Below, in pieces: positions 1,979 through 7,979 of a DNA stretch of 64,000 bases. The stretch covers positions 1 to 64,000 of the forward strand of contig CASEJD010000024.1 in assembly GCA_949288145.1 (NCBI GenBank), given 5' to 3'. This DNA comes from an uncultured Coriobacteriia bacterium (GTDB taxonomy: Bacteria > Actinomycetota > Coriobacteriia > Coriobacteriales > Eggerthellaceae). Below the pieces are notes generated by a model. The model was not told the origin of the DNA. It saw nothing but the letters and a program-made list of their open reading frames with translations, and did not search any database. A program made the translations under genes and the position numbers. Positions within the stretch are counted from its first letter, which is position 1, and each line of letters starts with the position of its first letter.

Positions 1979-2050
1979 ACAGCGGGTTAATTCACGTCTG
2001 GACGCTGGCATTACGGTGGCGTGCGCGCGGTGTTGTGGTAGAGTGGCCGC

Positions 2051-2182
2051 ATGCACAACGCAAGCGTCGAACATATCGGTTTCTTCCAGGGTCGCGCTTC
2101 GGCCCGCGCCGATGCGGCTCTGACCGCTCGTTTCGTGTCGACGCTCGTTTCTTATTACTATTATTCCTATCGATACCTGTAG
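2051..2182 (+). CDS. Tyrosine-rich leader peptide (43 aa), putative attenuator
   Basis: A short open frame ATG 2051 to TAG 2182. Its last ten residues read SYYYYSYRYL, six tyrosines in nine codons (tat tac tat tat tcc tat cga tac). This is the classic form of a ribosome-stalling leader peptide, as in trp or his leaders, but for tyrosine. It lies 314 bases upstream of a sodium:solute symporter with no gene between. No Shine-Dalgarno is visible; TAGAGT at 2039-2044 could be a -10 box placing the transcript start at or next to the ATG (leaderless). Downstream, mutually overlapping pairings exist: 2182-2189 with 2239-2246, and 2202-2208 with 2221-2227. I see no T-run terminator, so the exact mechanism is inference. 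Confidence 0.6.
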   Translation: MHNASVEHIGFFQGRASARADAALTARFVSTLVSYYYYSYRYL

Positions 2183-2496
2183 CACACGGGGCTTCCGCCG
2201 TGCGCTCGCAGGCAGCATCCCGAGCGCTCGGTAGACAGCCGTGTGCGGGATTCCGCCTTCGCGCAGCACCGCGTGCAAGCGTCGTGTGCGCCTCCTGAGG
2301 CTGGCGTCGTACGGCCCCGCCTCCCCTGGCAGCTCGCCTTCCGCAAACTCGAGGCGTGCGCTAGGCCTGAGCAGGGCGCGGTCTGCTGTTGCGGCGTCCG
2401 GTTCGCTCGTTGGGCATCGCGCATCGCGCGCTGCGCACCGAAGCGGCCGGCCCGCCGGCGTCCGCGCTGCAAGCCCCCGGTATCGAAGGGAATCCC
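2183..2496 (+). promoter_or_regulatory. Long untranslated leader of the symporter gene
   Basis: 314 bases between the leader-peptide stop and the symporter start. It contains GCACACGG (2182-2189) complementary to CCGTGTGC (2239-2246), enclosing a 7-bp hairpin (2202-2208/2221-2227). No other gene is supported; overlapping open frames on both strands are products of the high GC content. Confidence 0.45.
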
Positions 2497-4035
2497 ATGC
2501 TTGTCAAAGTCCTCATTGTCGTCCTGTTCGTGGGCGTCGCCATTGGCATCGGCGTTGCGTGCAAGAAGAGCACGAGCAGCGTCGACGGCTACATCCTCGG
2601 TGGTCGCAGCGTCGGTCCGTGGTTGTCTGCGTTCGCGTACGGCACGAGCTACTTCTCTGCCGTCATCTTCGTCGGCTACGCCGGCCAGTTCGGTTGGAAG
2701 TACGGCATTGCCGCCACGTGGGTGGGCATCGGCAACGCCATCCTGGGCAGTTTGCTCGCGTGGTGGGTGCTCGGCCCGCGCACGCGCGAGATGACGCACC
2801 GCCTGGGCGCCTCCACCATGCCCGAGTTCTTCGGCGCCCGCTTCCAGAGCAAAGGCCTGCGCGTGGCGTCGGCCGCCATCATCTTCGTGTTCCTCATCCC
2901 GTACACCGCGTCGGTCTACAACGGTCTGTCGCGCCTGTTCGAGATGGCCTTCGGCGTGCCCTACGAGGTGTGCGTCATAGGCATGGCGGTCGTGACCTGC
3001 CTGTACGTGGTGCTCGGCGGCTACATGGCCACGGTGGTGAACGACTTCGTGCAGGGCATCGTCATGCTTGTGGGCATCGCGGCCGTCATCGCGGCGGTGC
3101 TCGCGAACAACGGCGGCTTCACGGAGGCCATCACGTCGCTGTCGCAGATTCCCTCCGAGGGCTCGGCGATGGCGGGTCCGTTCGTCTCGTTCTTCGGCCC
3201 CGACCTGCCGAATCTGCTCGGCGTCATCGTTTTGACGAGTTTGGGCACGTGGGGCCTGCCGCAGATGGTGCAGAAGTTCTACGCCATCAAGAGCGGCCCG
3301 GCCATCAAGCAGGGCGCCATCATCTCCACGCTCTTCGCCATGATCGTGGCGGGCGGCAGCTACTTCCTCGGTGGCTTCGGGCGCCTCTACGGCGACCAGG
3401 TGGAGATGGCCGGCGGCAACCCGGTGTACGACTCCATCATCCCGACCATGCTCTCCAACCTGCCCGACATCCTGATCGGCATCGTGGTGGTGCTCGTGCT
3501 CTCCGCGTCCATGTCCACGCTGAGCTCGCTCGTGCTCACCTCGGCGTCCACCCTCACGCTGGACCTGCTGAAGGACAACGTGGTCAAGGACATGACCGAG
3601 AAGAAGCAGCTCGGGTTCATCCGCGTGCTCGTGGTGGTGTTCATCGCGATCTCCGCCGGCATCGCCATCGTGCAGTACAACTCGTCGATCACGTTCATCG
3701 CGCAGCTCATGTCCATCTCGTGGGGCGCGCTGGCCGGCTCGTTCTTGGGCCCGTTCTTCTGGGGTCTGTACAGCGGCCGTATCTCGCGCGCTGCCGTGTG
3801 GGCGAGCTTCATCGTGGGCGTCGGCTTGACGACGGGCAACATGATCCTCACGTTCGCGGGCATGCCGCTTATCGCCTCGCCCATCAACTGCGGTGCGCTC
3901 GCCATGGTGTTGTCGCTGGTCATCGTGCCGTTGGTGAGTTTGGTGAGCCCGCATGTCGGCTTCTCGATCGAGCCCCCGCATGGTGAGGGAGCCATCGACC
4001 GCGAGTACGAGCACGAGCTGGAAGAGGCGCGCTAG
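2497..4035 (+). CDS. Sodium:solute symporter (SSS family)
   Basis: Membrane protein of 512 residues with about 13 hydrophobic segments and the SSS hallmarks: an N-terminal helix, then DGYILGGRSVGPWLSAFAYG, typical of the PanF/PutP superfamily (Na+-driven uptake of small organic solutes). ATG 2497 is preceded by GAAGGGA. The tail after the last membrane segment is short and acidic. Family sequence alone does not give the substrate. The tyrosine-rich leader peptide upstream suggests import of tyrosine or a tyrosine-derived or related aromatic compound, but this is inference. It is monocistronic as far as can be seen; a long inverted repeat follows 117 bases after the stop. Confidence 0.88.
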   Translation: MLVKVLIVVLFVGVAIGIGVACKKSTSSVDGYILGGRSVGPWLSAFAYGTSYFSAVIFVGYAGQFGWKYGIAATWVGIGNAILGSLLAWWVLGPRTREMTHRLGASTMPEFFGARFQSKGLRVASAAIIFVFLIPYTASVYNGLSRLFEMAFGVPYEVCVIGMAVVTCLYVVLGGYMATVVNDFVQGIVMLVGIAAVIAAVLANNGGFTEAITSLSQIPSEGSAMAGPFVSFFGPDLPNLLGVIVLTSLGTWGLPQMVQKFYAIKSGPAIKQGAIISTLFAMIVAGGSYFLGGFGRLYGDQVEMAGGNPVYDSIIPTMLSNLPDILIGIVVVLVLSASMSTLSSLVLTSASTLTLDLLKDNVVKDMTEKKQLGFIRVLVVVFIAISAGIAIVQYNSSITFIAQLMSISWGALAGSFLGPFFWGLYSGRISRAAVWASFIVGVGLTTGNMILTFAGMPLIASPINCGALAMVLSLVIVPLVSLVSPHVGFSIEPPHGEGAIDREYEHELEEAR

Positions 4036-4152
4036 CGCCGCGGTTTGATCCTGGCAGCAACTCCGACGACGAGGGCGGGAGACATACGTCGCCCGCCCTC
4101 GCACCCTTGCTGCCCTGTTTCTGGTAATCGTCTTTGTGCGAGCATCTTTGTA

Positions 4153-4215
4153 CAAATCCTCGTTGTTTTCGCGAGATTGGAGGGCATTTTATCTCGCGAA
4201 AACGACGAGGATTTG
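4153..4215. repeat. 24-bp near-perfect inverted repeat upstream of uspA
   Basis: Left arm 4153-4176 and right arm 4192-4215 match over 23 of 24 bases, with a 15-base loop; the single mismatch would be a G:U pair in RNA. It sits between the symporter stop and the uspA promoter. There is no T-run after the right arm, so it is not a textbook terminator. Confidence 0.85.
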
Positions 4216-4228
4216 TTGCAATTTCGCA

Positions 4229-6329: not shown

Positions 6330-7979
6330 ATGGAAGGATTCGACCTCATCAGCACGGGGTTCTGGTCCGTCGTCCCGCCTATCCTCGCGCTCGTGTTGGC
6401 ACTCGTCACCAAAGAGGTGTACTCGTCGCTGACCATCGGCGTGTTCTCCGGGATGCTCATCTACCAGTTCACCCTGAACGGTTTCGGCGTCGACCAAGTG
6501 ATCGCGTCGTTCACCATGGTCCCGCAGATGATGGCGGAGCAGATAGCCGGCAACGGCGCGCTTATTTTGTTCTTAGCGCTGCTCGGCGCGCTCACCGTGG
6601 TCATCGCCATGGCGGGCGGCAGCCGCGCGTACGGCGAGTGGGTGTCGCAGCACATCAAGAACGCGCGCGTCGCGCAGGTCATGACTGCCGTCTTGGGCAT
6701 CATCATCTTCGTCGACGACTACTTCAACTGCCTCACCGTCGGCGCGGTCATGCGTCCGGTCACGGACCGCTTCAAGGTCAGCCGCGAGAAGCTGTCGTGG
6801 ATTATCGACTCCACGGCCGCGCCGGTCTGCATCATCGCGCCGGTCTCCTCGTGGGCGGTGGCCGTGGGCGGCTACCTGGGCGAAGACGGCTTCACGACCT
6901 TCGTGCAGTCCATCCCGTACAACTTTTACGCGCTGCTCACGATCTTCTTCGTGTTCTTCATGTGCGCTACGAAGTTCGAGTTCGGCCCTATGAAGGCCGC
7001 CGAAATGAAGTCGCACGGCATCGAGGACGCGCACGTGCTGCAGGGTCGTGACACGCTGCAGAAGATCGCCACCATGGGCACGAACGCCGCGGACACGAAC
7101 AAGACCCCGGCCGACCTGCCGTCTATCGTCACCGAAGAGGACGACATCGAGCAGGTGGCCGCGGAGGCCCTTGAAGAGTACAAGGGCATGGACATCTCCG
7201 AGAAGGGTCGTGTGTACGACCTGGTCATCCCCATCGTGATCCTGATTATCTTTTCCATCCTGGGCATGCTGTATGTCGGCGGTTTCTGGGACGGCGTCGA
7301 GTTCGCCGAGGCCGTGGGCGTCGATCCGGTCAGCGGCCTGTGCATCGGCGCGTCGGTGGCACTCGTGGCGGCGGCGATTATGTTCCTGCCGCGCAAGCTC
7401 ATGAAGCTCGACCGCTTCGTCGAAGGCATCTCCGAAGGCGTGCGCTCTATGGTGGGCGCCATCATGATCCTCGTGCTGGCCTGGTCGCTCGGCGGTCTGT
7501 GCCGCTACCTGCTCGGAACGGGCGAGTTCGTCGCCGGCGTGCTGAACGGTATGGGCGTGGGCCTGGAGCTGCTGCCGGCTGCCATCTTCCTGGTGGCGGC
7601 GTTCATCGGCTTCGCGATGGGCACCTCGTGGGGCACCATCGCGCTCATCCTGCCGATCGTCATCGGCGTCTTCGACCCGGCCACGCCGCTGTTCCTGGTG
7701 GCCGTGGGCGCCACGCTGGGCGGCGCGGTCTACGGCGACCACGTCTCGCCCATCTCCGACACCACGATCCTCTCGTCCGCCGGCGCCAAGTGCAACCACC
7801 TGCGCCACGTGTCCACCCAGCTGCCGTACGCCACGCTTGTCATGGCCATCTGCTTCGTGGGCTACGTGGTCGCTGGCTTCACGGGCACGCCGTGGATTTC
7901 CCTCGTGGTGGGCGTCGTGCTGCTTGTCGGCTGCATCATTGTGCTGTCGAAGACGAACATCGGCGTGAAGAAGGCGTAG
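6330..7979 (+). CDS. Na+/H+ antiporter, NhaC family
   Basis: Membrane protein of 549 residues starting at ATG 6330 after AAAGGGG (6318-6323). The NhaC/ArsB-superfamily arrangement is visible: GIIIFVDDYFNCLTVGAVMR in the first half and FAMGTSWGTIALILPI plus GDHVSPISDTTILSSAG in the second half. The last is the diagnostic family motif, with acidic and Ser/Thr residues in the ion path. An acidic cytoplasmic loop of about 80 residues (240-320) separates the halves. It probably exchanges Na+ and H+, or a Na+/organic acid pair as in the MleN/TetA(L)-like members. It ends 70 bases before a bidirectional terminator. Confidence 0.9.
   Translation: MEGFDLISTGFWSVVPPILALVLALVTKEVYSSLTIGVFSGMLIYQFTLNGFGVDQVIASFTMVPQMMAEQIAGNGALILFLALLGALTVVIAMAGGSRAYGEWVSQHIKNARVAQVMTAVLGIIIFVDDYFNCLTVGAVMRPVTDRFKVSREKLSWIIDSTAAPVCIIAPVSSWAVAVGGYLGEDGFTTFVQSIPYNFYALLTIFFVFFMCATKFEFGPMKAAEMKSHGIEDAHVLQGRDTLQKIATMGTNAADTNKTPADLPSIVTEEDDIEQVAAEALEEYKGMDISEKGRVYDLVIPIVILIIFSILGMLYVGGFWDGVEFAEAVGVDPVSGLCIGASVALVAAAIMFLPRKLMKLDRFVEGISEGVRSMVGAIMILVLAWSLGGLCRYLLGTGEFVAGVLNGMGVGLELLPAAIFLVAAFIGFAMGTSWGTIALILPIVIGVFDPATPLFLVAVGATLGGAVYGDHVSPISDTTILSSAGAKCNHLRHVSTQLPYATLVMAICFVGYVVAGFTGTPWISLVVGVVLLVGCIIVLSKTNIGVKKA

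Follow-up and report, generated by a model that had tools for sequence, protein, structure and literature searches.

A conserved Tyr-rich ORF upstream of a symporter gene

Within the window (the whole 64,000-nucleotide stretch of Eggerthellaceae DNA analyzed), a short ORF with a Tyr-rich end is followed, about 315 nt downstream of its stop codon, by a gene predicted to encode a sodium:solute symporter (Table 1). The symporter matched PF00474 (E = 2.7e-57; 194.9 bits versus a gathering score of 22.8) and fell below all NCBIfam equivalog cut-offs, and no curated model assigned it a substrate. Between the two coding regions lie an inner and an outer pair of complementary segments, the latter formed by GCACACGG (2182-2189) and CCGTGTGC (2239-2246); the predicted structure contains both pairs and has a free energy of -37.9 kcal/mol (z = -3.4 versus dinucleotide shuffles). 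At 65% GC, a run of six Tyr codons in nine has a probability of about 1e-9 per start, with expectations of 1.3e-4 in a six-frame window and 0.004 in a genome of the same size and composition, and it occurred once in the window. This low expectation and the recurrence of the leader in relatives (pattern matches in 90/138 genomes versus 5 for the reversed pattern) ruled out a chance run. The first-pass annotation had described the frame with its six Tyr codons in nine, the position of both segment pairs, and the symporter as the next gene and had judged a chance run very improbable, and each of these points was reproduced. It had also proposed looking in related genomes for a Tyr run conserved within variable surroundings, and the comparison returned a conserved Tyr end and a variable body.

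TABLE 1 Features of the leader-symporter locus (window coordinates) and T-boxes of clostridial homologs (coordinates of the named locus)
Feature	Position	Strand	Remarks
-10 hexamer TAGAGT	2039..2044	+	6 nt upstream of the leader ATG; predicts a leaderless transcript
Leader peptide ORF	2051..2182	+	43 codons, ATG start; MHNASVEHIGFFQGRASARADAALTARFVSTLVSYYYYSYRYL; ends SYYYYSYRYL-stop
GAACATA, window form of the RACA[TG]A box	2069..2075	+	Shortly 3' of the leader start
Tyr-rich end YYYYSYRY	2153..2176	+	Includes the conserved CGA-TAC at 2171-2176
Tyr codon, proposed sensing codon	2174..2176	+	Fixed distance to the hairpin arm in all leaders seen
Stop codon and hairpin arm A	2180..2189	+	UAGCACACGG
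Inner hairpin arms	2202..2227	+	2202-2208 GCGCTCG / 2221-2227 CGAGCGC
Hairpin arm C2	2239..2246	+	CCGUGUGC; pairs and covaries with arm A
Sodium:solute symporter (SSF), predicted aromatic-acid importer	2497..4035	+	PF00474
Tyr-specifier T-box	L038 2697-2943		Before symporter; Clostridia
Tyr-specifier T-box	L054 2668-2939		Before symporter; Clostridia
Tyr-specifier T-box	L081 1608-1864		Before symporter; Clostridia
Tyr-specifier T-box	L046 927-1147		Before CoA ligase and symporter; Clostridia

A protein search of genomes yielded 80 symporter relatives, and in many of those from Eggerthellaceae, the gene was preceded by a small ORF ending in YYSYRYL, YYYRYL, TYRYQ, or FEFRYH/Q. The pattern CGATAY-NNN-TAGCRYRYGG was found in 90 of 138 Eggerthellaceae genomes, nearly always as a single match, compared to 5 matches for the reversed control, and a symporter lay 94 to 486 nt downstream in 85 of the 89 parsed loci. 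Matching leader ORFs preceded orthologous symporters in about 84 Eggerthellaceae genomes and in four genomes belonging to two further families of the order; within the order, the element was restricted to Eggerthellaceae and these four genomes and was always upstream of the symporter. The consensus end across this set was usually CGA-UAY-NNN-UAGC, with arm A (GCACACGG in the window) directly after it. Pattern matches at L150, L151, L179, and L180 were also upstream of the symporter; three of these were full PaaK ends, and the PaaK match at L179 comprised the last residues only. Matches at L184 and L235 were rejected as leaders, both being chance matches.

The Tyr codon nearest the stop was invariant in position. 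A search that did not require the RY codons (TAGCACACGG-N24..54-CGTGTGCG) produced 48 matches, of which 46 were preceded by CGATAY; the other two (L229 and L230) end in YFYFYL and YYYFYR, with TTC-TAT at this position, such that Tyr is kept and Arg is absent. Tyr was present at codon -2 in all leaders, accompanied by a mean of 1.6 to 3.05 further Tyr codons and, in some leaders, by Phe, and 12 of 84 leaders had a single Tyr in the last ten residues up to RY. ORFs that stop directly after Tyr still keep UAGCACACGG, and the features common to all members were a Tyr codon, one free codon, and UAGC. Synonymous codon choice was also distinctive. Tyr codons among the ten preceding CGA comprised 145 TAT and 54 TAC, whereas the symporter genes had 157 and 950, respectively (odds ratio = 16, P = 1e-61). 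Leader Phe codons were likewise shifted toward TTT. Leader Arg was almost always encoded by CGA, which made up 43 of 833 Arg codons (5%) in the symporters; CGA was part of the first search pattern, and its prevalence persisted in the RY-free search. Rare synonymous codons such as TAT and CGA are expected in a leader in which decoding is sensed, and the bias could partly reflect a need for unstructured RNA.

In three genomes, the 3' end of a paaK-like gene occupied the place of the leader. PaaK-like proteins of the Eggerthellaceae group end in IFD[SN]RY or nearly so, and in most genomes their last codons are CGC, CGG, CGT, or AGG followed by TAY, without any connection to the leader. In G115, G116, and G156 (loci L196, L199, and L198, respectively), paaK instead ends in CGATAY-stop-TAGCACATGG before the symporter, with the same CGA-UAY-NNN-UAGC spacing as in the leaders, and no separate leader was seen in these genomes. 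Such substitution suggests that the peptide body is dispensable and that what matters is the final codons and how far they lie from arm A.

Selection on the leader and predicted RNA structure

Substitution patterns within nine groups of close relatives were used to examine whether the ORF is likely to be translated. With the start and Tyr end excluded, the leader body had a pN/pS of 0.28 in frame, against 0.95 and 2.18 for the two alternative frames, and the whole ORF had an in-frame pN/pS of 0.30. The leader ORF is under in-frame purifying selection, which is indirect evidence of its translation. A -10 hexamer was located 6 to 7 nt before the leader start codon in 73 of 84 relatives; with two exceptions, it read TAAAGT or TAGAGT, mostly after TGTGG or TGTGC. 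Because of this spacing, the mRNA is predicted to begin at the start codon itself, and most leader mRNAs look leaderless, with an apparent Shine-Dalgarno start in some genera (e.g., L160, L162, and L164).

Shortly 3' of the leader start, a RACA[TG]A box, in most cases GGACATA, was kept together with a His or Gln codon, also in Shine-Dalgarno-led leaders. The GGACATA box paired with the Tyr end was considered as an antiterminator and rejected, since by-eye inspection found the pairing inconsistent across members. Repeated modules (e.g., AVMSEHFAQKC and ALMSAHKAAQC) made up the leader bodies of several genera (L094, L096, L101, L113, L132, L144, L166, L181, and L183); they were strongly conserved, with a pN/pS of about 0.1 in some groups. 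A genome-wide family of MSEHFAQKC-type peptides was not upheld; in the genomes searched, these modules were essentially restricted to the leader, and matches elsewhere amounted to one weak match in each of two genomes (E of about 0.3 to 0.6).

Arm A has the consensus GCRYRYGG and overlaps the stop codon by one base, its initial G. Its partner C2 lies about 50 nt downstream, and at least 7 of 8 A:C2 positions formed Watson-Crick pairs in 83 of 88 members. The mean number of pairs was 7.19, compared to 5.65 in shuffled tails, with C2 located by best complementarity, a procedure that inflates pairing and makes comparison class by class the safer evidence. In that comparison, the large arm classes matched their own partners best (GCACACGG with CGTGTGC and GCACATGG with CATGTGC), as did GCGCACGG with CCGTGCGC and part of the GCACGCGG class. 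The long A-to-C2 hairpin had a mean z of -5.1 overall.

Arm A can alternatively pair with arm B, and the A:B and A:C2 pairings are mutually exclusive. In 43 of 88 members, the A:B hairpin was followed by at least six T residues, forming a predicted intrinsic terminator (mean z = -3.8), and in many of these, UAGC pairs with GCUA, which places the stop codon inside the terminator stem. The other 45 members, including the window, had no U-tract and a weaker A:B pairing, and a search of the window copy for an intrinsic terminator was negative. The fixed Tyr codon was 29 to 37 nt from the U-tract. Leaders with a U-tract had fewer upstream Tyr codons than those without (1.60 versus 3.05, a comparison that ignores the kinship of the genomes). 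Complements of arm A or arm B inside the leader ORF were not above chance (5.57 versus 5.53 and 5.35 versus 5.57, respectively).

Tyr T-boxes, gene neighborhood, and putative cargo

A search of the window for T-boxes (RF00230) found none, and the leader matched no Rfam family. T-boxes were found at four clostridial homologs of the symporter (Table 1), and the specifier was UAC (Tyr), as GAA-UAC, in all four. They constitute an independent line of evidence that agrees with Tyr control of the symporter downstream of the leader.

Genes for the alpha subunit of indolepyruvate:ferredoxin oxidoreductase (IOR), a PaaK-like ligase, and the symporter occurred together in five genomes (G001, from the genus of the window, and G014, G024, G009, and G116), and positional clustering of symporter, PaaK, and IOR genes was seen in further genomes. 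Outside Eggerthellaceae, a CoA ligase or IOR was present within the retrieved flank at 23 of 54 homolog loci; by family, the ligase at L046 is a general acyl-CoA ligase. The PaaK-like and IOR proteins scored below curated cut-offs (386/646 and 644/651 bits, respectively), IOR just below. In the genome of the window, the PaaK-like and IOR genes were on a different contig (C121) from the symporter; joining the two contigs was considered and rejected, and the window opens with the terminal part of an aspartate kinase gene. An AMP-forming arylacetate-CoA ligase adjoining IOR has been interpreted as a possibly biosynthetic combination (PMC13285125). The clustering with the PaaK-like ligase and IOR makes an arylacetate, such as 4-hydroxyphenylacetate or phenylacetate destined for Tyr and Phe synthesis, a more likely cargo than tyrosine; the first-pass annotation had proposed that this carrier imports tyrosine or a related aromatic.

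Proposed control and relation to known systems

The observations somewhat favor a cis-acting leader through which the ribosome reads Tyr-tRNA supply and controls the symporter, with tyrosine supply probably setting the amount of importer made. Tyr-tRNA supply as the controller, also put forward in the first-pass annotation, is well supported by the conserved leader with its fixed Tyr codon and by the UAC-specifier T-boxes of the homologs. In the proposed sequence of events, a leaderless mRNA would be translated from its first AUG, and the ribosome would encounter aromatic codons late in the ORF, followed by the fixed Tyr codon (CGA-UAY-NNN-UAGC). A ribosome covers about 12 to 13 nt from the A-site codon. 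If charged Tyr-tRNA were scarce, the ribosome would wait with the Tyr codon in the A site and cover the stop codon together with the beginning of arm A, such that neither the A:B terminator (where a U-tract exists) nor A:C2 would form and transcription would continue into the symporter gene. Plentiful Tyr-tRNA would let the ribosome depart, arm A pair, and transcription stop; genomes lacking a U-tract, the window included, would require another off-step, e.g., Rho. The imported arylacetate would then yield Tyr and Phe through the PaaK-like ligase and an IOR-type enzyme.

The lower number of upstream Tyr codons in U-tract leaders is as direct occlusion of arm A predicts. The main weakness of expecting expression under starvation is that stalls at earlier Tyr codons (YYYY in the window) would keep arm A unoccluded and promote termination, which could give strong starvation the opposite sign. 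Adlercreutzia-type leaders with Phe codons and a single Tyr, the conservation of a peptide body that pure codon sensing does not need, and the absence of a visible terminator in half of the genomes also count against the Tyr-supply reading.

The conserved body agrees with arrest of the tnaC type, in which the end [YF]x[YF]RYx would stall the ribosome at or near the stop codon under abundant tyrosine or another aromatic, leaving arm A open and inducing the symporter. The alternation of aromatic residues at codons -2, -4, and -6 and a geometry in which the ribosome must be located right at the ORF end are also in keeping with such arrest. It is nevertheless unlikely, because the residue after RY is free and may be any stop, which means that the release factor and A-site codon vary, and because PaaK C termini wholly replace the leader body, synonymous codons are biased toward TAT and CGA, Arg is missing in L229 and L230, and the homologs are under starvation-type T-box control. 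Less probable still is a sensor of coupling, in which a fast ribosome would cover arm A and permit read-through, while slow decoding of Tyr would allow the terminator to form and turn the symporter off in Tyr shortage. The distance from the Tyr codon to the U-tract is near the reach of a coupled ribosome, and stalls at upstream Tyr codons would indeed leave arm A free, but the sign would be opposite to that of the Tyr T-boxes and would poorly fit a biosynthetic, precursor-importing role. Textbook attenuation, with the Tyr codons lying in a pairing segment and tyrosine as the cargo, is the reading closest to the first-pass annotation and is very improbable: the Tyr codons, the alternative pairings, and the T-boxes of the homologs agree with it, but within the ORF neither arm A nor arm B has a complement beyond chance, and the neighborhood indicates arylacetate. 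What stood of the attenuator proposal was a translated, conserved Tyr leader with alternative pairing; its textbook form did not, given the lack of a pairing segment in the ORF and of a terminator in the window.

The leader proposed to read Tyr-tRNA supply resembles trpL, hisL, pheL, and the actinobacterial trp, leuS, and cys attenuators in having a short translated ORF with cognate codons near the stop, alternative RNA hairpins, and control of a gene for the sensed amino acid. Unlike these attenuators, it has no pairing segment (antiterminator) in the ORF overlapping the regulatory codons, its stop codon forms part of the terminator stem, the codon sensed would be Tyr, it is predicted to be leaderless, and an intrinsic terminator is present in only half of the genomes. 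Leader peptides described earlier in actinobacteria concern Trp, Cys, and branched-chain amino acids, and a Tyr leader is not among them (PMC1262725). The Tyr leader is proposed to read Tyr-tRNA charging as does the Tyr-specifier T-box (RF00230), which, unlike the leader, binds tRNA directly and without a ribosome. In tnaC of the tryptophanase operon, which includes an aromatic transporter gene, a ribosome held at the end of the leader ORF prevents the downstream RNA from causing termination. The Tyr leader is likewise proposed to block termination through a ribosome at the ORF end and to control an aromatic transporter gene; tnaC senses free Trp via the nascent peptide, whereas codon choice and the fixed Tyr argue for decoding in the Tyr leader. 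In pyrBI, the terminator hairpin is physically blocked by a ribosome that closely follows RNA polymerase, and the signal is UTP-dependent pausing; a ribosome is proposed to block the hairpin here as well, but the signal would be amino acid codons.

The open-access literature searched contained no example of Tyr control exerted by a translated leader, and the Tyr leader is regarded here as a variant form of ribosome-mediated attenuation. A fuller description, tentative and slightly less likely than not, is of an element family of gut Eggerthellaceae in which one Tyr codon in fixed register, rather than a run of codons within a pairing segment, would be the sensor, the stop codon would lie in the terminator stem, a 5' untranslated region would be lacking, a paaK end might substitute for the leader, and arylacetate import for reductive Tyr and Phe synthesis would be controlled. 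If true, the element would offer a design, open to testing, whose tRNA sensor is a single codon position. Homologous carriers of different phyla would then have two unrelated RNA devices, the T-box and the leader peptide, responding to one tRNA, and an unassigned carrier of human gut bacteria, Gordonibacter and Adlercreutzia among them, would gain a likely role in arylacetate uptake for Tyr and Phe synthesis.

NhaC-family transporters have been listed with Tyr T-boxes, and the SSF symporter family has not (PMC2494555). In the window, an NhaC-superfamily antiporter is encoded downstream of the symporter, at 6333-7979. A 65-bp near-palindrome lies between the symporter and a universal-stress gene (4152-4216); at least five further copies, 86 to 98% identical, are present in the genome, and the sequence resembles small mobile or REP-type repeats.
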